Made by a program: the position numbers and the translations under genes
In this document: piece by piece, positions 22,982 to 33,210 of the stretch
Layout: every line of letters starts with the position of its first letter
Numbering within the stretch: the first letter of the stretch is position 1
NCBI GenBank assembly: GCA_019232625.1
Contig: JAFANP010000031.1
Coordinates: 1-45,057, forward strand
Length of the DNA: 45,057 nt
Reading direction: 5' to 3'
Source: Alphaproteobacteria bacterium
GTDB lineage: Bacteria; Pseudomonadota; Alphaproteobacteria; Sphingomonadales; Sphingomonadaceae
Notes under the pieces: generated by a model
Told to the model about the DNA's origin: nothing
Database searches by the model: none
The model's input: the letters and a program-made list of their open reading frames with translations, nothing else

Positions 22982-25900
22982 TCACTCCGCGGGCTGCGGC
23001 AACGGCGCCTTGTCGCCCGGACGATAGGTGAGGATCCTGCCGAACTTGGGCGCCAGCCATCCCTCGAAGCTGTCGGCGAGGCTGAACCCGGCCGGGACGA
23101 TGACGAGCGTGAGCACGGTCGAGAGGATGAGGCCGCCGATCACGACGATTCCCATCGGCGCCCGCCAGCTTCCGTCGCCCGACAGCGAGATGGCGGTGGG
23201 CAGCATGCCCGCGACCATCGCCACCGTGGTCATGACGATCGGCTGGGCCCGCTTGTGGCCGGCATCGGCGATCGCCTCGTTCTTCTCCACGCCCTTCGCC
23301 ATCTCCTCGATCGCGAAGTCGATCAGAAGGATGGAGTTCTTGGCGACGATGCCGAGCAGCATCAGGATGCCGATCATGACCGGCATCGACATGGCGTTGC
23401 CGGTCAGGTGCAGGGCGATGGCGCCCCCCAGCGGCGCGAGCAGCAGCGAGCCCATGTTCACGAACGGCGGCACGATGCGCTTGTAGAGCAGCACCAGCAC
23501 CGCGAAGACGAGGAAGATGCCCGCGACCACCGCGATGAGGAAGTTGGTGACGAGCTCCTGCTCCGCCTTCTGCTGGCCCTGGCGGGCATGCTCCACCCCG
23601 GCCGGAAGGTTGTTGTAGGAAGGCAGCAGCTTGATCTTGCTCATCGCCTCGACGACGCCCGGGGCGAGGTCGGCGCCGACGACGATCCGCCGCTGCTGGT
23701 TGAACCGCTGGATCTGCGTCGGGCCGGCGCCGAAGCCGATGTCGGCGACGACCTTGAGCGGCACCGAACCGCCGTTCGCCGTCGGCACCGGCAGGTTCTC
23801 GATGGTCGAGAGATTCTGCCGCGAGCCCTCGTCGAGCGCCACCCGGATCGGGATCTGCCGGTCCGACAGCGAGAATTTCGCGCTGTTCTGGTCGATGTCG
23901 CCCAGGGTCGCGATCCTGATCGTCTGGCTGAGCGCGGCGGTGGTCACGCCCATGTCGGAGGCGAGGTCGAAGCGCGGCTTGATGGTGATCTCGGGCCGGC
24001 GCAGGTCGCCTTCGATCCGCGGCGCCTTCACCTCGGGCATCTTCTTCATGTCCGCGACGAGCGCGTTGGCGGCCTGGTCGAGCTTCACCGGATCGTCCCC
24101 GGACAGCATGACCGAGATGTCGCGATTGCCGAAGCCCTGCTGCGAGCGGAAATAGACCCGCGCGTCGGCGATGTTCCTGAGCTTGGGCGCCACCGCCCGC
24201 TCGAACTCGGTGCTGGTGCGCTCCCGGTCCTTGTTCAGGGTGATGTAGATGTTGGCGCCGCCGACTCGGATCGACGCGAAGGCCTTCAGCACGTCGGGCT
24301 CGCGGCGGATGATGTTGGCGGCCTGGCTGGCCACCGCCTGGGTCTGCTGGAGCGTCGCGCCCGGCGCCATCTCCACCGCCACCGAGCTGTAGTCGCTGTT
24401 GACGTTGGGCTGGAAGGTGAAGGGCAGGGTGCCGAAGGCGAAGATCGTCGCCACGAAGGCGGCGACGCCGATCAGCATCGTCTTCCAGCGGTGCTTGAGC
24501 GACCACCAGAGCAGGCCCATGTAGCGGTCCATCAGCCAGCCCTCGCCGTGGGAGGCGATGCCCTTGGCGCTGAGGAAATAGGCCGCCATCAGCGGGGTGA
24601 CCAATCGGGCGACGGCGAGGCTGGTCAGCACCGCGACGACGATGGTGAGGCCGAAGCTCTTGAAATACTGGCCGATGAGGCCGCCCATCATTCCCACCGG
24701 AAGGAACACGGCGACGATCGAGAAGGTCGTCGCGACCACCGCGAGGCCGATCTCGTCGGCCGCGTCGATCGCCGCCTGATAGGCGCTCTTGCCCATGCGC
24801 ATGTGCCTGACGATGTTCTCGATCTCGACGATCGCGTCGTCGACGAGCACGCCCGCGACCAGGCTGAGGGCGAGCAGTGTCACCCCGTTCAGGGTGAAGC
24901 CCATCAGGTCCATGAACCAGAAGGTCGGGATCGCCGAAAGCGGGATCGCCACCGCCGAGATCACCGTCGCCCTGAAGTCGCGGAGGAAGAGGAAGACGAC
25001 CAGGACGGCGAGCGCCGCGCCTTCGAGCAGCGCCTCCATGGCGGAGACATATTGGCCGCGCGTATAGTCGACGCTGGTGAAGAGCAGCCGGAACTTGAAC
25101 TTGCCGCCGCTCTCCTTCTCCAGCTTGTCCAGCTCCTTGGCGGCCGCGTCGTAGACGGTGACGTCGGAGGAGCCCTTGGCCTTCTCGATCGAGAAGCTCA
25201 GCACCTGCCGCCCGTTCATCAGCGCCAGGTTGCGCTGCTCGGCATAGAGGTCTCGAACGGTCGCGATCGAGGAGAGCTTGATCGTCCGCCCGTTGCCCAC
25301 CGAGATGTTCTTCTCGCCCAGGTCGTAGGCGTTGGCGGCGTTGCCGAGCACGCGCACCGACTGCTCGGAGCCCGCGATCTCGGCTCGGCCGCCGGCGGTG
25401 TTGAGGTTCATCTGCCGAAGCTGCGCGTTGACCTGGGCGGCGGTGATGCCCTGGGCCTGCATCTTCACCGGGTCGAGGATGATCCGGATCTCGCGGCTGA
25501 CTCCGCCGCCGCGCGACACGTTCGCCATTCCGGGGATGGCGAGCAGGCGCTTGGAGATGGTGTTGTCGATGTACCAGCTCAGCTCCTCGAGCCCCATGGC
25601 GGTCGATTCGACCGCCATGTAGGCGATCGGCCCGCCCTCGGCGTCGACCCGCTCCACCTGCGGCTCGAGGATGCCGTCGGGAAGGTCGGAGCGGATGTTG
25701 GCGATGGCGTCGCGGACGTCGTTGACCGCCCGGTCGACCGGCGTGCCGATGTCGAAGCGGACGAAGGTCGAGCTCGACCCCTCGCGCGCGGTCGATTCGA
25801 TCTCGTCGACCCCGTTGATGCCGCGTATCGCCGCCTCGACCCGCTGGGTGACCTGCGTCTCGAGCTCCGAGGGCGCGGCGCCGGGCTGGACCACCGTCAC

Positions 25901-26041
25901 CTGCGCCGCCGGGAAGCTGATGTCCGGCATCTGGTTGACGTCCATGCGCAGGAAGCTGACGATGCCGAGCAGGCTCAGCGCCGCGAACAGCACCAGCGGA
26001 AACACCGGGTTGCGGATCGCCCAGCTGGAGATGTTACGCAT
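22982..26041 (-). CDS. RND-family multidrug efflux pump inner-membrane transporter
   Basis: A 1019-residue HAE1-type RND pump. Start motif MRNISSWAIRNPVFPLVLFA leads into the first membrane helix. Porter domains follow, then helix 4 with LVAGVLVDDAIVEIENIVRH, whose Asp pair forms the proton relay. Further signatures are TTFSIVAVFLPVGMMGG in the first half and VMIGILMLLGIVAKNSILLIDFAIEE in the second, the duplicated helix-4 equivalent with its Lys. It exports substrates using the proton gradient together with the adaptor encoded 29 bases upstream. No outer-membrane channel gene is present, so a TolC-type partner must be encoded elsewhere. Confidence 0.96.
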   Translation of the reverse strand: MRNISSWAIRNPVFPLVLFAALSLLGIVSFLRMDVNQMPDISFPAAQVTVVQPGAAPSELETQVTQRVEAAIRGINGVDEIESTAREGSSSTFVRFDIGTPVDRAVNDVRDAIANIRSDLPDGILEPQVERVDAEGGPIAYMAVESTAMGLEELSWYIDNTISKRLLAIPGMANVSRGGGVSREIRIILDPVKMQAQGITAAQVNAQLRQMNLNTAGGRAEIAGSEQSVRVLGNAANAYDLGEKNISVGNGRTIKLSSIATVRDLYAEQRNLALMNGRQVLSFSIEKAKGSSDVTVYDAAAKELDKLEKESGGKFKFRLLFTSVDYTRGQYVSAMEALLEGAALAVLVVFLFLRDFRATVISAVAIPLSAIPTFWFMDLMGFTLNGVTLLALSLVAGVLVDDAIVEIENIVRHMRMGKSAYQAAIDAADEIGLAVVATTFSIVAVFLPVGMMGGLIGQYFKSFGLTIVVAVLTSLAVARLVTPLMAAYFLSAKGIASHGEGWLMDRYMGLLWWSLKHRWKTMLIGVAAFVATIFAFGTLPFTFQPNVNSDYSSVAVEMAPGATLQQTQAVASQAANIIRREPDVLKAFASIRVGGANIYITLNKDRERTSTEFERAVAPKLRNIADARVYFRSQQGFGNRDISVMLSGDDPVKLDQAANALVADMKKMPEVKAPRIEGDLRRPEITIKPRFDLASDMGVTTAALSQTIRIATLGDIDQNSAKFSLSDRQIPIRVALDEGSRQNLSTIENLPVPTANGGSVPLKVVADIGFGAGPTQIQRFNQQRRIVVGADLAPGVVEAMSKIKLLPSYNNLPAGVEHARQGQQKAEQELVTNFLIAVVAGIFLVFAVLVLLYKRIVPPFVNMGSLLLAPLGGAIALHLTGNAMSMPVMIGILMLLGIVAKNSILLIDFAIEEMAKGVEKNEAIADAGHKRAQPIVMTTVAMVAGMLPTAISLSGDGSWRAPMGIVVIGGLILSTVLTLVIVPAGFSLADSFEGWLAPKFGRILTYRPGDKAPLPQPAE

Positions 26042-26070
26042 GTCGGATCAACTCCGTCGGGAGGATGGGG

Positions 26071-27276
26071 TCAGCGGGTCGCGGCGGCGGCCGCGGCGCG
26101 TTGCGGCCTGATCTTCTCGCCCTCGGTGAGGAACGGACCGGCCGAGAGGACGACCCGCTCGTTGCCGGTGAGGCCCTCGCCGACGACGACTCCGTCGTCG
26201 GTGACCGCGGCGACCTTGACGGCGCGGCGGCGGACGACGTTCTGGCCGTCGACGATGAAGGCGTAGCTGCCGCCGCCGTCGTTCAGCACCGCCGATTCGG
26301 GCAGCAGCGGCGCGTCGACCGCGCCCGCCTTGATCTCGGCCGTGGCGAAGCCGCCCGGACGCAGGTCTCGATTGTAGGCGACGGCGACCCGGGCGACGCC
26401 CTGCCGGCTCTGCGGATCGATGATCGGCGCGACCTGCCACACCGCGCCCGGATAGGCGCGGTCGGAGCCGACCGGCGTGATCATCGCCTGGACCCCCGGG
26501 GTGATCCGGGCGAGATCGCTCTCGGGCAGCCGGGCCATCATCTCCATCTCGCCGCCGCGGGCGATGTGGAACAGGGCGGAAGAGCCCGCCCCGACCACCT
26601 GGCCCGGCTCGACGCTGCGGGTGAGGACGAGGCCCGCGGCGGGCGCGCGGATGCTGAGGCGGCCGATTCGGGCGCGGCTCTGGCCGAGATTGGCCTGGGC
26701 GACGCGGACTCGGGCATTGGCGGCGTCGCGGGTGGCGATGCGCCGCTCGACGTCCGCCTTGGAGACGAAGCCGCGGCCGACCAGCTTCTGCGCCCGGTCC
26801 AGCTCCTGCTGGGCGAGCCGGGCGTCGGCCTGCGCCACCTGGATCTGGGCGGCGAGCTGCGCCGCCTCCTGGGTCTGGAGCGAGCGGTCGATCACCGCCA
26901 GAGTCTGGCCCGCGCCGACCCATTGTCCGGCCTCGACGAGGACCTGGACGATCTGGCCGCCTTCGCCCGGCACGCCGACCGGCATGTCGTGGCGCGCGGC
27001 GAGCTGGCCGGTGGCGGAGATGGTGCGGGCGATCTGCTGCCGCCCGGGGACGACGACCGTCACGGCGGGCGCGGCCTCGGCGGCGCCGCCCTTGGCGTTC
27101 ACGGTCACCGCCGTCTTGTCGGAGCCGCGGCCCATCATGAGGAAGGCGGCGACAGCGACGGCGAGCACCGCGACGACGGCGAGGATGATGTTGCGCCGGC
27201 GCCGGCGCGCCGCGCCGTCGTCCGCCACCTCAACGTCGAGAGCGCTGCGGCGCCATTTCGGCGACTCGAAATTCAT
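26071..27276 (-). CDS. RND efflux periplasmic adaptor (membrane fusion protein)
   Basis: A 401-residue adaptor. A short cytoplasmic arm with RRRRRN precedes one membrane helix (IILAVVAVLAVAVAAFLMMG). A lipoyl half (QIARTISATGQLAARHDMPV), an alpha-helical hairpin (QLAAQIQVAQADARLAQQEL through RIATRDAANARVRVAQANLG), the second lipoyl half (IRAPAAGLVLTRSVEPGQVV) and a beta-barrel follow. It links the RND transporter to an outer-membrane channel. The ATG at 27276 is preferred because GGGGAAG lies about 9 bases upstream; alternatives are ATG 27285 and GTG 27294. It is the first gene of a two-gene operon. Confidence 0.93.
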   Translation of the reverse strand: MNFESPKWRRSALDVEVADDGAARRRRRNIILAVVAVLAVAVAAFLMMGRGSDKTAVTVNAKGGAAEAAPAVTVVVPGRQQIARTISATGQLAARHDMPVGVPGEGGQIVQVLVEAGQWVGAGQTLAVIDRSLQTQEAAQLAAQIQVAQADARLAQQELDRAQKLVGRGFVSKADVERRIATRDAANARVRVAQANLGQSRARIGRLSIRAPAAGLVLTRSVEPGQVVGAGSSALFHIARGGEMEMMARLPESDLARITPGVQAMITPVGSDRAYPGAVWQVAPIIDPQSRQGVARVAVAYNRDLRPGGFATAEIKAGAVDAPLLPESAVLNDGGGSYAFIVDGQNVVRRRAVKVAAVTDDGVVVGEGLTGNERVVLSAGPFLTEGEKIRPQRAAAAAATR

Positions 27277-27316
27277 AGCTTCCATCTTCCCCACACCGAC
27301 AAGGCGGCCCGGCCGC

Positions 27317-27479: not shown

Positions 27480-27746
27480 ATGAACCTGCTGGCGGATCAT
27501 GGCTGGATCATGTGGATCATCATCGGCGCCGTCGCGGGCGCCGTCGCCAAGGCCCTCATGCCGGGTCGCGACCCGGGCGGGTGCATCGTCACCATCCTCC
27601 TCGGCATCGGCGGCGCGGTGCTCGCCGGCTATCTCGGCCACGCGCTCAACATCTACCCGCCGAGCCGCGGCGCCGACTGGATCGCCGCCATCATCGGCGC
27701 GATGATCATCCTCGGCGTGTGGCGGCTGATCGCCGGACGCCGCTAG
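27480..27746 (+). CDS. GlsB/YeaQ/YmgE family stress membrane protein
   Basis: An 88-residue protein with three hydrophobic segments: WIMWIIIGAVAGAVAKALMP, GCIVTILLGIGGAVLAGYLG and WIAAIIGAMIILGVWRLIAG. The pattern, with a GRDPGG loop between the first two, is typical of this transglycosylase-associated family. The ATG at 27480 has GGAGG 6 bases upstream; an in-frame ATG at 27462 lacks a site. Its last 4 bases overlap the convergent trpA stop. An EcfG-type promoter precedes it, matching the stress induction known for the family. Confidence 0.92.
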   Translation: MNLLADHGWIMWIIIGAVAGAVAKALMPGRDPGGCIVTILLGIGGAVLAGYLGHALNIYPPSRGADWIAAIIGAMIILGVWRLIAGRR

Positions 27747-28528
27747 AGCCTCGTCGCCGCCTTCATCGCCGCGACGAACCCCCGCACCGCCTCCGGCCCC
27801 CGCTCGGCGGCCAGCGAGACGATCGCCGAGCCGGAGATGACTCCCGCGGCGCCGGCCTCGATCGCCTGGCGGACGTGCTCGGGGCGGGAGATGCCGAAGC
27901 CGAGCACCGGCGGCGGCGCGTCGAGGGCGCGCAGCCTGGCGATCAGCGCCGCGTCGAAGCGGACCTCCGCGTCGGCGCCGGTCACTCCGGCGCGGGCGAC
28001 GCAATAGGTATAGCCGCGCCCCGCCGCGGCGATCGCGGCGAGCGTCGGCCCGGGCGTGTTCGGCGCGGCGATCAGCACCGGGTCGACCGACGCCGACGCG
28101 GCCGCCGCGAGGAACGGCGCCGCCTCGGCGCAAGGCACGTCGGCGACGAGGACGCTGTCCACCCCGGCCGCGGCGGCGGAGTCGTAAAAGGCCTGCCGGC
28201 CGCGCGCGACGACGAGGTTGGCGTAGGTGAGGATCCCGACCGGTATGTCCGGATGCCGGGCGCGGAACGCCGCAAGCAGGCCGAAGCAGCCCGCCGGAGT
28301 CGCCCCCGCCGCAAGCGCCCGCACCGCCGCCGCCTGGATCGCCGGCCCGTCCGCCACCGGATCGGAGAAGGGTATGCCGACCTCGATCATGTCGGCTCCG
28401 CCGGCGACCAGGGCGTCGAGCAGGGCGTCGCCGGCCTCCAGGTCCGGATCGCCGAGCATGGCGAAGCCGCCGAACGCCGCCTCCCCGCGGTCCGCGAGCC
28501 GGGCGAACATCGCCGCGTAGCGGCTCAT
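27743..28528 (-). CDS. trpA: Tryptophan synthase alpha chain
   Basis: A 261-residue protein that cleaves indole-3-glycerol phosphate to indole and glyceraldehyde-3-phosphate in the TrpA2B2 complex. The catalytic acids E49 and D60 fall at the standard numbers in [29 protein letters not shown] and [10 protein letters not shown] follow, and the phosphate loop is [11 protein letters not shown]. The start ATG overlaps the trpB stop as ATGA. It is the last gene of the trp operon and ends in a 4-base overlap with the convergent GlsB-family gene. Confidence 0.97.
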
Positions 28529-29700
28529 GCGCTCGGCCCAAGCAGGCGCTGCGCCTGGCCCATGTCCTTGTCGCCGCGTCCCGAGAGGTTGGCCACGAGC
28601 ACCGTCTCCTCCGTCGCCGCCTCCGCCATCTTGAGGGCGTGGGCCAAAGCGTGGGCCGATTCGAAGGCGCAGATGATTCCCTCGCGCCGGGCGAGCAGGG
28701 CGAAGGCGTCGAGCGCCTCCCGGTCGGTCGCGCCGACATATTCGGCCCGGCCGCTGTCCTTGAGATAAGCGTGCTCGGGCCCGACGGCCGGATAGTCGAG
28801 CCCCGCCGAGACCGACCAGCTTTCGGCGATCTGCCCGTCCGCGTCCTGGAGCACGTAGGTCTCCGAGCCGTGGAGGATCCCGGGCCGGCCGCGCAGCAGG
28901 GTGGCGCCGTGCTCCGCCCCGTCCAGACCCCGCCCCGCCGCCTCGACCCCGATCAGCCGCACGCCCTCGTCGCCGACGAAGTCGGCGAAGGCGCCCATCG
29001 CATTGGACCCTCCGCCGACGCAGGCGATCACCGCGTCGGGCAGGCGCCCTTCCTCCTCCAGCACCTGCGCCCGCGCTTCCTTGCCGATCACCCGCTGGAA
29101 CTCGCGGACCATCAGCGGGAAAGGATGCGGCCCGGCGACGGTGCCGAGCAGATAGTGGGTGTCGGCGAAGCTCGCCGCCCAGTCCCTCAGCGCCTCGTTG
29201 ATCGCATCCTTGAGGGTCCGGCTGCCGCTCTCGACGGGCACCACCTCGGCGCCCATCAGCTCCATCCGGAAGACGTTCAGCTGCTGCCGCTCGACGTCGT
29301 GCGCGCCCATGTAGATTCGCGTCTTCAGCCCGAACAGCGCGCCCGCCAGAGCCGTCGCGACCCCGTGCTGGCCGGCGCCCGTCTCGGCGATCAGCCGCGT
29401 CTTGCCCATCTTTCTCGCGAGCAGCGCCTGGCCCAGCACCTGGTTGGTCTTGTGAGCGCCGCCGTGGAGCAGGTCCTCGCGCTTCAGGTAGAGCCGGACC
29501 CGTTCCGAGCCGAGGTTGCGGCAGCGGGTGAGCGGAGTCGGCCGCCCGGCATAATTGGCGAGCAGCTCGGCGAGCTCGGCCTGGAAGGCCGCATCCTCCA
29601 TCGCCGCGAGGAAGGCCGCCTCGAGCTGCTCCAGCGCCGGCATCAATATCTCCGGCACATAGGCGCCGCCATAGGCGCCGAACCGGCCCGACATCAGCAT
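28525..29700 (-). CDS. trpB: Tryptophan synthase beta chain
   Basis: A 391-residue PLP enzyme that joins indole and serine. The PLP lysine is K84 in [12 protein letters not shown]. The phosphate-binding GGGSNAMG, the ammonium and COMM-domain region [12 protein letters not shown], and the C-terminal [12 protein letters not shown] are intact. The start [20 protein letters not shown] resembles the enterobacterial TrpB more than the usual alphaproteobacterial version, which has a longer N-terminus. It overlaps trpCF by 7 bases and trpA by 4, so translation is coupled. Confidence 0.97.
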
Positions 29701-31091
29701 GGCAGCGCCTCCCCCCGCGCCGGCAGGCGCAGGGCCTCGAAAAAGGCCTGGAGCTTGCCGGGGTCCTTGCGCCCGGGCGCGCTCTCCACGCCGGAGCCGA
29801 CGTCCAGCGCATAGGCGCCGACCCGCGCCGCCGCCGCCGCATTGGCGGGAGAGAGGCCGCCGGCGAGCACCGCCGTTCCCAGGTCCGGCCGGCCTTCAAG
29901 GCGCGTCCAGTCGAACGCGACGCCGGTGCCGCCGGAGCGGCCGTTCGCCTTCGTGTCGTAGAGCATGCGGTCGGCGCCCGGCCGCGGCTCCGGGAGGTCG
30001 CGATCGACGGCGCCCGCCGCCCAGATCTCCGTTCCCTCCGGCAGCAGCGCCCTCAGGCCGCTTATGTAGAGGCCGTCCTCCTCGCCGTGGAGCTGGACCG
30101 CGGCGAGGTCGAGCCGCCGGGCGGCGGCGGCGACCCGGTCCGGTCTCTCGTCGCGGAAGACGCCGACCAGCGGGATCGAGGCCGCCGCGGCGATCGGCGA
30201 AGCCTCGTCCACGGTCACCGCGCGGGGCGTATCCGGCACCATCACCATGCCGGCGAAGGAGGCGCCCTGCGCCGCGGCGATCGCCGCGTCGCCCGCGTCG
30301 GTGAGGCCGCAGACCTTGACCCGGCCGAAGGCGAGCGCGCGGGCCGCCAGCCCTGGGTCCGGAGCGCGCATCAGCGACGAGCCGACGAGGAAGGCGTCGG
30401 CATGAGGCGCGAGCCGCGCCACGTCGGCGCGGTCGGCGATCCCCGATTCGGAGACCACCAGGGTCCCCGCCGGGACCAGCCGGGCGAGCCGCTCGGTCGC
30501 TGCGAGGTCGACCTTCAGCGTCTTGAGATCGCGGTTGTTGATTCCGATCATCGGCGCGCCGAGGGCCACCGCGCGGCGCACCTCCGCCTCGTCATGCGCC
30601 TCGACCAGCGCGTCCATGCCGAGCCGACGCGCCTCCTCGATCGCCTCGACCGCCTCGGCGTCGCCCAGCACCGCGAGGATGACGAGCACCGCATCGGCGC
30701 CATGAAGCCGCGCCTCGGCGACCTGGCGGGGATCGACGACGAAGTCCTTGGCGAGGATGGGGCCGTCATATTCGCGCCGCACCGCCTCGAGGTCGGCGAA
30801 GGAGCCGCCGAAATAGGGGCCGTCGGTCAGAACGCTGATCGCGTCGGCCGCGCCGCGATAGGCCCGCGCCATCGCCGCCGGGTCGACGCTTCCGCGCAGC
30901 GCCCCCTGGGAGGGGGAGACGCGCTTCACCTCCATGACGAAGCGGGCGCCGGGGCGGGCGAGGGCGGCGCGCAGGCTGCGCCGCGTCGGCTCCGCCCGCG
31001 CCCGGAGCGAGGCGAGGTCGATGCCGCGCAGCCGCTCGGCCACGTCGACGCGCTTTCGGGCGACGATCTCGCCCAGCACGCCTTCAGCCAT
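29694..31091 (-). CDS. trpCF: Fused indole-3-glycerol-phosphate synthase / phosphoribosylanthranilate isomerase
   Basis: A single 465-residue frame carrying both enzymes of steps 3 and 4 of tryptophan synthesis. The first domain, residues 1 to about 253, is [15 protein letters not shown] (53-63), ILAKDFVVD (112-120), [13 protein letters not shown] (183-195) and ESGI (215-218). The second, from about residue 257, is [12 protein letters not shown] with catalytic C261, [12 protein letters not shown] and LDVGSGVES. This is the E. coli TrpC architecture, where the domains are also fused in this order and of similar length. In most alphaproteobacteria trpC and trpF are separate genes. It overlaps trpD by 8 bases and trpB by 7. 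Confidence 0.96.
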
Positions 31092-32151
31092 GCGTCGCCT
31101 CCACGAACAGGGCGAGGCGGCGGCGCGCCTCGCCGGAGCGCAGCGCGTCCAGGGCCCGCTCGACGCCCTCCGCCAGGTCGGCGGCGAGCCCCGCCGTCAT
31201 CAGCAAGGCGCCGGCGTTGAGCGCCACCGCGTCGGTCTCGGCGGCGAGGCCGTAGCCCATCAGGAGCGCGGAAAGCCGCTCCGCATTCTCCTCCGGGCTG
31301 CCGCCCTTCAATTCGGCGAGCGGCCGGCGGGCGAGCCCGGCCGCCTCCGGCGCCAGGGTCATCCGCTCGACGGCGCCGCCGCGGACGCTGGCCGCCTCGG
31401 TCTCGCCGTGGAGGGCGATCTCGTCGAGGCCCGCGCCGTGGACGATGAGCGCGCGTTCCGTGCCGAGCGCCGCCAGCGTGTGCGCCACCGGCTCGACGAG
31501 GCGCGCGTCGGCGACTCCGAGCAGCTGCACCGGCGGCTCCGCCGGGTTCACGCAGGGACCAAGCACGTTCATGACGGTGCGCACCTTCAGCGCCCGGCGC
31601 ACCGGCCCGGCATGGCGCAGCCCCGGATGATATTGCGGCGCGAACAGGAAGCAGAAGCCGGTCTGGTCGAGCGCCCGCCGGGACTCGGCCGGCGAGATGT
31701 CGAGCCTGGCGCCGAGCCGCTCCAGCACGTCCGCCGAGCCGCAGCGCGAGGTGACCGAGCGGTTGCCGTGCTTGGCCACGGGAAGGCCGGCGGCCGCCGC
31801 GACGAACGCCGCCGCCGTCGAGACGTTGATCGTCCCCGATCCGTCGCCTCCCGTGCCGCAGCTGTCGGCGAACAGATAATCGGGCCGTTCGAAATCGAGG
31901 TCGGCGGCGCGAAGCGCGCGGGCCGCGCCGATCAGCTCGTCGGTCGTCTCGCCCTTGAGGCGGAGCGCGATCAGCATCGCGGCGATGGCGGTCTCCTCCA
32001 GCCGCCCGTCGACGAGCGCGGCGAAGAGCCCCTCCGCCGCCTCCATGTCCAGCGACTCCCCCCGGTAGAGGCGGGCGAGGGCGGCGTCCGCCGCGTCGTC
32101 GGCCGCCGTCCGGGCGGGGATGAGAAGGGCGAGGTTGCTGTGGGAATTCAT
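31084..32151 (-). CDS. trpD: Anthranilate phosphoribosyltransferase
   Basis: A 355-residue enzyme that joins anthranilate and PRPP. The PRPP-binding DSCGTGGDGSGTINVST (about residues 96-112) and KHGNRSVTSRCGSADVLE are intact, as are PGLRHAGPVRRALKVRTVMN and NVLGPCVNPA. It is not fused to a TrpG glutaminase domain. The ATG at 32151 has AGGAA 8 bases upstream and sits 25 bases after the T tract of the attenuator terminator. It is the first structural gene of the trpD-CF-B-A operon; trpE and trpG are not in the window. Confidence 0.97.
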   Translation of the reverse strand: MNSHSNLALLIPARTAADDAADAALARLYRGESLDMEAAEGLFAALVDGRLEETAIAAMLIALRLKGETTDELIGAARALRAADLDFERPDYLFADSCGTGGDGSGTINVSTAAAFVAAAAGLPVAKHGNRSVTSRCGSADVLERLGARLDISPAESRRALDQTGFCFLFAPQYHPGLRHAGPVRRALKVRTVMNVLGPCVNPAEPPVQLLGVADARLVEPVAHTLAALGTERALIVHGAGLDEIALHGETEAASVRGGAVERMTLAPEAAGLARRPLAELKGGSPEENAERLSALLMGYGLAAETDAVALNAGALLMTAGLAADLAEGVERALDALRSGEARRRLALFVEATHG

Positions 32152-32175
32152 GACGCAGGTTCCTGGCGACGAGGG

Positions 32176-32210
32176 TGAAAAAAGAAAGGCCCGCCGGAGG
32201 GGCGGGCCTT
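32176..32210 (-). terminator. Attenuator terminator before trpD
   Basis: AAGGCCCGCC and GGCGGGCCTT (32210-32201 and 32195-32186 on the minus strand) form a perfect 10-bp stem with a 5-base loop, followed by TCTTTTTT. It lies between the leader peptide and trpD, where it would stop transcription when tryptophan is plentiful. Confidence 0.92.
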
Positions 32211-32242
32211 CTTGGAAGATCGGACCTGGGATTAGATCCGCG

Positions 32243-32359
32243 TCACCATCGATGCTGCGCCGCCGCCGGAATCTCGTTCCGCCACCAGAGCCAAGCCTGC
32301 TGGGCCGCCGCGGCGGGGGCCGCGACGTCGAAGCGGGAGAAAGGCGCGAACTGCGTCAT
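32243..32359 (-). CDS. trpL: trp operon leader peptide, 38 residues, four Trp
   Basis: The frame reads MTQFAPFSRFDVAAP, then AAAAQQAWLWWRNEI, then PAAAQHRW and stop. Trp is at residues 23, 25, 26 and 38. Four Trp in 38 codons, three of them within four consecutive codons, is far above chance and is the hallmark of a Trp attenuation leader. GAAGGGTG lies directly before the ATG as a ribosome site. The peptide itself probably has no function beyond stalling. It is too short to be caught by length-based gene finding. Confidence 0.88.
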   Translation of the reverse strand: MTQFAPFSRFDVAAPAAAAQQAWLWWRNEIPAAAQHRW

Positions 32360-32499
32360 CACCCTTCAACTCACAGCAAAACGCCGCCCCGTCAAGCCCT
32401 TGGAAGCCCGGCGATGCGGCGTGCCGGTCTCCATTCAGCAAGCGTCCAGCCCGTGCGGGGTCTACAAAGGGTCGATCGCAACCCCTCAGGGAGCCCGTC

Positions 32500-33210
32500 A
32501 TGAAGCCTCTCCTCCTCGCCGCCGCCCTCCTCGCCGCGGCGCCGCTCGCGCCCGCCGCCGCCCAGGCGCCCGAGCCGCCGCTGCGCGGCACGCGGCTCGA
32601 CGTCGTCGCCACCGGCGAGGTTCAGCGCGTCCCCGACGTCGCCCGCATCTCCGCCGGCGTGGTGACCAGCGCCCCCACCGCCACCGCCGCGCTCGAGCAG
32701 AATGCGCGGCGGATCGCCGCGGTCCGCGCCGCACTGAAGCGCGCCGGCATCGCCGACCGCGACATCCAGACCAGCGCCATCAACCTCTTCCCGGATTATC
32801 GGCAGGACGAGCATGGCGGCAATCCGCAGCTCATCGGCTACCGCGCCTCCAACGAGCTCGCGGTCCGGTTCCGCGACCTCGCGAACACCGGCAGGATATT
32901 GGACGCGCTGGTCGCCGTCGGCGCCAACCAGATCAGCGGCCCGACCCTGGCGGTCGACAAGCCGGAGGCGGCGCTCGACGAAGCGCGGACCCTGGCGGTC
33001 GCCAACGCCCGCGCGCGCGCCGAGCTTTACGCCCGCGCCCTCGGCAAGCGGGTCGGCCGGGTGGTGGCGGTGAGCGAGGCGGGGCCGGTCTTCTCGCCCT
33101 ACGGCAAGGTCGCGATGCAGGCGATGGCGCGCGACTCGGCGACCAATCTGATCGAGCCCGGCGAGCAGGCGCTGGCGGTCAGCCTCAACGTCACGTTCGA
33201 GCTGGAATGA
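32500..33210 (+). CDS. SIMPL-domain (DUF541) exported protein
   Basis: A 236-residue protein. A signal peptide (residues 1-21, MKPLLLAAALLAAAPLAPAA) precedes a SIMPL/DUF541 domain. Its start is VVATGEVQRVPDVARISAGV, followed by ALKRAGIADRDIQTSAINLFP and YRASNELAVRFRDLANTGRI, and near the end ARARAELYARALGKRVGRVV. The family includes periplasmic proteins of poorly known role, some linked to oxidative stress. The ATG has GGGAG about 6 bases upstream. A hairpin terminator follows the stop. Confidence 0.92.
   Translation: MKPLLLAAALLAAAPLAPAAAQAPEPPLRGTRLDVVATGEVQRVPDVARISAGVVTSAPTATAALEQNARRIAAVRAALKRAGIADRDIQTSAINLFPDYRQDEHGGNPQLIGYRASNELAVRFRDLANTGRILDALVAVGANQISGPTLAVDKPEAALDEARTLAVANARARAELYARALGKRVGRVVAVSEAGPVFSPYGKVAMQAMARDSATNLIEPGEQALAVSLNVTFELE

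Follow-up and report, generated by a model that had tools for sequence, protein, structure and literature searches.

Why is a tryptophan operon that begins with trpD preceded by a short reading frame rich in Trp codons and by an intrinsic terminator, and how might these govern the genes behind them? The locus lies on the minus strand of a 45,057-nucleotide stretch of Sphingomonadaceae DNA (contig JAFANP010000031.1), here called the window. Its parts, in the order of transcription, are as follows.

32367..32395, minus strand: predicted promoter, with -35 TTGACG (32395-32390), a 17-nt spacer and a -10-like GAGTTG (32372-32367), placed by the spacing in relatives.
32360..32367, minus strand: GAAGGGTG, probably the end of the -10 element up to the transcription start, judged by its position relative to the conserved TTGAC.
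32243..32359, minus strand: leader open reading frame of 38 codons, MTQFAPFSRFDVAAPAAAAQQAWLWWRNEIPAAAQHRW, from the ATG at 32359 to a TGA ending at 32243 (translation; Trp cluster kept in relatives).
32282..32293, minus strand: the putatively regulatory Trp cluster W-L-W-W, with Trp at codons 23 (32293-32291), 25 (32287-32285) and 26 (32284-32282).
within 32280-32268, minus strand: small hairpin GGAA/UUCC just after the Trp codons (fold).
32257..32267, minus strand: predicted 5' strand of the antiterminator, GGCGGCGGCGC, inside the leader frame, its partner in the minimum-energy fold for a stalled ribosome being the terminator's 5' arm.
32248-32246, minus strand: second, distal Trp codon (codon 38).
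32221..32240, minus strand: hairpin 3' of the leader stop codon, nested in the predicted antiterminator (fold of the window RNA).
32186..32210, minus strand: intrinsic terminator AAGGCCCGCC-CCTCC-GGCGGGCCTT, 10 bp with a 5-nt loop, its 5' arm (32210-32201) common to the antiterminator.
32178..32185, minus strand: T tract of the terminator (sequence).
31084..32151, minus strand: trpD, anthranilate phosphoribosyltransferase (Pfam PF00591, PF02885).
29694..31091, minus strand: trpCF fusion (Pfam PF00218, PF00697).
28525..29700, minus strand: trpB, PALP family (Pfam PF00291; place in the operon).
27743..28528, minus strand: trpA (in-frame translation; matches in relatives).

We read this arrangement as a ribosome-mediated tryptophan transcription attenuator before trpD-CF-B-A, with a probability of about 0.93; the promoter and start of transcription, the stalling of the ribosome and the response to Trp are the parts that we infer. 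The frame of 38 codons with Trp at positions 23, 25, 26 and 38 is present as originally predicted and lies on the minus strand, and the 10-bp terminator with its T tract is likewise in place, the trpD ATG at 32151 following 26 bases past the tract and not the 25 first counted. We scanned for frames that have an open start, hold three or more Trp codons in a run of five, reach a stop shortly after and are closely followed by a terminator. Both strands of the window together gave one match, and 30 Markov-shuffled windows gave none. In 577,876 bases from relatives (some loci overlap), every match stood immediately in front of either trpD or a DAHP synthase gene; the criteria are strict, and some leaders known from other inspection escape them. 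The combination of leader and terminator is beyond chance. The bulk folding energy of the leader is unremarkable (z -1.32, with 17 of 200 shuffles as low), and its signal is the arrangement of its parts. Other terminators of the GCCCGCC type occur at two more places in the genome, one just behind a tRNA-like sequence and the other where a gene ends, and neither looks like an attenuator; the pattern is a strict one that the window's own terminator escapes.

The original prediction staked itself on related genomes keeping the Trp codons of the leader. The same-genus sample comprised 26 genomes, 22 of them with a TrpD match, one of which was a contig-edge fragment. A Trp-cluster leader and a terminator precede trpD in all 21 with readable upstream DNA, the genome under study included, and in eight of nine further distinct Sphingomonas loci; in the ninth (L017), trpG lies ~30 nt before trpD with no leader between. 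Counted as distinct trpD loci, 29 of 30 carry both elements (the window, 20/20 same-genus and 8/9 further Sphingomonas), and across them the Trp codons are retained while the flanking leader codons change, so that the refuting condition did not arise. Attenuation by the ribosome is the best reading of the control of trpD-CF-B-A. By eye, the leader peptides have little in common beyond the Trp cluster and the end, where 28 of 29 trpD leaders have a Trp among the final six residues. Two genomes from another family of the order (L250 and L251) also have a Trp leader and a terminator before trpD, with the same promoter spacing. An attenuator of this kind at trpE of other genera and families was set aside, as the strict scan, which asks for Trp at three of five codons and a terminator, was empty before trpE in 19 loci (L228-L246). 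A looser scan gave Trp-pair frames lacking a terminator in three of these loci, the gene start being mostly extrapolated from matches that begin well inside TrpE.

The leaders also share a promoter layout. Of 49 leaders, 36 have TTGAC at 33-38 nt upstream of their ATG, a placement seen at 1 of the 277 other ATGs in these stretches; among the 31 leaders with only one candidate start, 23 have it. When TTGCC and TTGTC are counted too and the spacing is extended to 39, the figure is 45 of 49. The second position of the -10 is A in 28 of the 36 at the 17-nt spacing, and one of the two loci from the other family reads TTGACA, 17 nt, CATATT, 6 nt, ATG (counted by hand). A scan with an E. coli-type consensus gave no promoter in the window; the one proposed here is predicted from the spacing in relatives. 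The conserved spacing places the predicted transcription start at or beside the leader AUG, and the leader of the window is probably leaderless. The GAAGGGTG noted before the leader in the original prediction is present at 32367-32360, but its role as a ribosome site was set aside because of the conserved TTGAC spacing; given this -35/-10 layout, it is probably promoter DNA between the -10 and the predicted start.

Under the proposed mechanism, transcription would begin at or beside the leader AUG, and a ribosome would trail the RNA polymerase through the leader. When charged Trp-tRNA is scarce, the ribosome would stall at the WLWW codons and leave the GGCGGC codons ~15-23 nt downstream free to pair with the 5' arm of the terminator, the second hairpin being nested inside. 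With this antiterminator formed, no terminator would arise and trpD-CF-B-A would be transcribed. With ample Trp, the ribosome would reach the stop codon and cover the antiterminator strand, upon which the GGCCCGCC/GGCGGGCC terminator would fold and transcription would end before trpD.

This switch was modelled in two states that differ in where the unoccupied RNA begins: 8 nt past the last Trp codon (the assumed ribosome edge) when the ribosome is stalled, and 8 nt past the stop codon in the stop state. Over the 49 leaders, which are related loci and not independent, upstream pairing of the terminator 5' arm averaged 0.81 in the stalled state, 0.56 with the upstream part shuffled and 0.24 at the stop. 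The pairing was above its own shuffle mean in 49/49 leaders and was reached by at most 5 of 100 shuffles in 17 of them; the high shuffle mean indicates that GC-rich codons easily pair with a GC-rich arm. The leader codons that serve as pairing partner have their centre 15-23 nt beyond the Trp cluster in 48 leaders and 12 nt beyond it in the remaining one. At equilibrium, the terminator probability rises from below 0.5 when stalled to above 0.9 at the stop in 26 leaders and is at least 0.5 in both states in 21, the window among them; in two (L016, L059) not even the stop state brings it to 0.6. Taken by itself, the window has an arm pairing of 0.81 when stalled and of 0.60 at the stop; the stalled value is equalled or exceeded in 15 of 100 shuffles, and the 10-bp terminator wins at equilibrium in both states (0.96). 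The antiterminator of the window must therefore act kinetically, with the order of transcription mattering. The mutually exclusive structures for which the original prediction proposed a folding test appear in the models as an alternative pairing available at a Trp stall over the 49 leaders, but the window's switch taken alone is weak in silico and 21 leaders have no equilibrium switch.

The switch helix in these models is the pairing of the downstream leader codons with the terminator arm. The small hairpin singled out at first, directly after the Trp codons, does exist in the window, but it is not the switch, and as a conserved part it was rejected, being absent from the folds of many relatives. 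Nor is a 1:2 protector hairpin conserved, the antiterminator strand being sequestered at above 0.5 in 13 of 49 leaders. The distal Trp codon may have a structural role besides a sensing one. The variable middle of the leaders aligned poorly in MAFFT, only the outer antiterminator stem was recovered, and the arms of that stem hardly vary; no covariation count is therefore claimed for the nested helices.

The thermodynamic weakness of the window's switch invites the thought that the Trp frame is a leftover and that the terminator merely insulates trpD from transcription upstream. We consider this very improbable: at 21/21 same-genus loci the Trp cluster and terminator have persisted through changes in the remaining leader codons, the spacing of the promoter box is kept in 36/49 leaders, and the gene upstream of the leader, of the SIMPL family, is divergently oriented, which leaves little to insulate from.

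The attenuator reading, which we retain, can be compared with known systems. As in the Escherichia coli trpL-trpEDCBA leader (RF00513), whose attenuation combines Trp codons, a terminator and an alternative antiterminator, all three elements have counterparts here. Unlike E. coli trpL, the locus heads a trpD-first operon, has no conserved 1:2 hairpin and scores below threshold: the Rfam Trp_leader family gave 21.6 bits (E 0.045) against a gathering cut-off of 41 bits and was not listed at gathering, and the assignment was rejected on that score. T-box, TRAP-type and Trp-binding RNA systems control trp genes in other organisms, so a different Trp sensor could be imagined. The T-box covariance model had no match in the window at gathering or in 32100-32500 under permissive settings; the window likewise gave no match at cut-off to any other Trp-sensing family, and the permissive search of 32100-32500 gave only sub-threshold Trp_leader matches. 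To our knowledge, in-frame Trp clusters have no role in such systems, and a sensor of this type seems improbable in the extreme. By the sequence tests made, the locus appears to belong with the ribosome-mediated trp attenuators, though it falls below the Rfam Trp_leader cut-off. The mechanism is classical; what is unusual about the locus is its location, its pairing with a second attenuator and a design that appears to be leaderless.

The original prediction saw no trpE or trpG, and both are indeed absent from the window, but the genome has them on contig 47 behind a leader of their own. There are two chorismate-binding genes in the genome, one PabB-like, a name suggested by its low identity to TrpE, and one a TrpE that adjoins trpG behind the gene for a 338-aa DAHP synthase. 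The DAHP synthase gene is preceded by the leader MATAILLSSNARWWRWPTDVAAARPHRMT, with a WWRW cluster, and by the terminator GGCCCGCC-CTTCC-GGCGGGCC with a T run. A Trp leader and a terminator stand before the long DAHP synthase in 20/20 same-genus genomes that have the gene, 19 of them with WWRW. Four more distant loci (L227, L247, L248, L249) have a Trp leader before DAHP synthase too, and in two of these the scan found no perfect-stem terminator. The trp pathway is thus split, with each half behind its own Trp leader. The second attenuator, of the same build, would act likewise on DAHP synthase-trpE-trpG, so that both halves of the pathway would obey one signal.

The nearest described counterpart is trpL-trpE(G) of Sinorhizobium meliloti (rnTrpL), which is also an alphaproteobacterial leader and combines tandem Trp codons with a terminator. 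According to the published account (PMC7298713), only trpE(G) of the three S. meliloti trp operons is attenuated, the leader has 14 aa and the attenuator RNA starts with the ATG of trpL, a 5' end that is reported there and predicted here from the promoter. The present system differs from it in that trpD-CF-B-A and DAHP synthase-trpE-G would each be attenuated, the leaders are longer and the predicted antiterminator strand lies inside the reading frame. The same account reports that the attenuated trpL RNA (rnTrpL) destabilises trpDC mRNA and that the leader peptide acts on a multidrug efflux operon (PMC7298713). By analogy with rnTrpL and peTrpL, the terminated leader RNA or its peptide might also act in trans on other mRNAs, the cis attenuator being half of its job. 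The promoter layout, which predicts a leaderless leader like S. meliloti trpL, and the RND efflux pair downstream of trpA here and in five relatives are in keeping with such a role. We nevertheless hold it to be unlikely: with one attenuator at trpE-G and another at trpD-A, a link in trans would be superfluous, and the peptides share by eye little beyond the Trp cluster and the end.

The cis attenuator stands on an operon that may not be native to the lineage. In a TrpD tree of 62 rows, 30 Sphingomonas rows form a group (support 100/99) that falls outside a clade in which nine TrpD of other genera within the family and of other families within the order are united. The group lies on the side of Alteromonadales, Gemmatimonadota and others, as do L250 and L251; the forks on that side are unsettled, and the tree singles out no donor. 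The simplest reading is that the trp operon looks horizontally acquired. Resemblance to Alteromonadales-type trp operons extends to many of the closest TrpD outside Sphingomonas, which are from Alteromonadales, and trpCF is fused here as it is in gammaproteobacteria; unlike in Alteromonadales-type operons, trpE-G is split off with the DAHP synthase gene.

Gene order among these relatives is fluid. The split layout is that of the window, of Sphingomonas parva, a cultivable relative, and of the larger part of the genus, L018 has the order trpG-leader-trpD, and L227 and L248 have DAHP synthase-trpE-G-D-CF with one leader at the head. In G005 (L186) and G013 (L194), DAHP synthase-trpE-trpG-[leader]-trpD-CF-B-A forms a single row that holds two Trp attenuators in series. 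We offer, at somewhat less than even odds, the conjecture that the acquired pathway carries a portable leaderless attenuator cassette on each half, back to the first shikimate step, and that the in-series pair of G005 and G013 gives the late genes a steeper response to Trp. The proposed cassette would consist of a TTGAC promoter, an AUG at the transcription start, the Trp cluster, an antiterminator strand in the reading frame and a GCCCGCC terminator.

Among the literature matches listed, which come mostly from outside subscription papers (a 2004 survey of proteobacterial attenuators being one of the latter), there was no report of such attenuators in Sphingomonadales or at trpD-first or DAHP synthase-trpE-G genes. 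The findings place classical Trp attenuation in this lineage and at these genes, a trpD-first operon and DAHP synthase-trpE-G, and provide some fifty naturally occurring variants of a single switch. With split, one-row and trpE-less states among close relatives, one can study how regulation accompanies the genes of an operon that breaks up, and whether trp attenuators of Alphaproteobacteria commonly have leaderless leaders.

Some further observations concern the gene content around these loci. A HlyD-type adaptor and an AcrB-type pump lie at 22982-27294 of the window (minus strand), on the same strand as trpA and ~450 nt past it; matches to both occur at 5 of 20 same-genus trpD loci, or 5 of 17 informative ones, as L192, L200 and L201 end by trpA. 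G017 (L212), which is 95% complete, has DAHP synthase-trpE-trpG with a leader and no TrpD match, and G036 (L250; L251 being from G054), which has a trpD leader, shows no TrpE match of any kind. In G002, G009, G016 and G018 (L183, L190, L197, L198), four genomes that are each at least 99% complete, trpD-CF-B-A is kept with its Trp leader, and the only chorismate-binding gene seen is PabB-like, with 37-40% identity to TrpE. A kynureninase match over the cut-off is found in all four, as in 24 of the 26 genus genomes overall, and this enzyme could supply their anthranilate.
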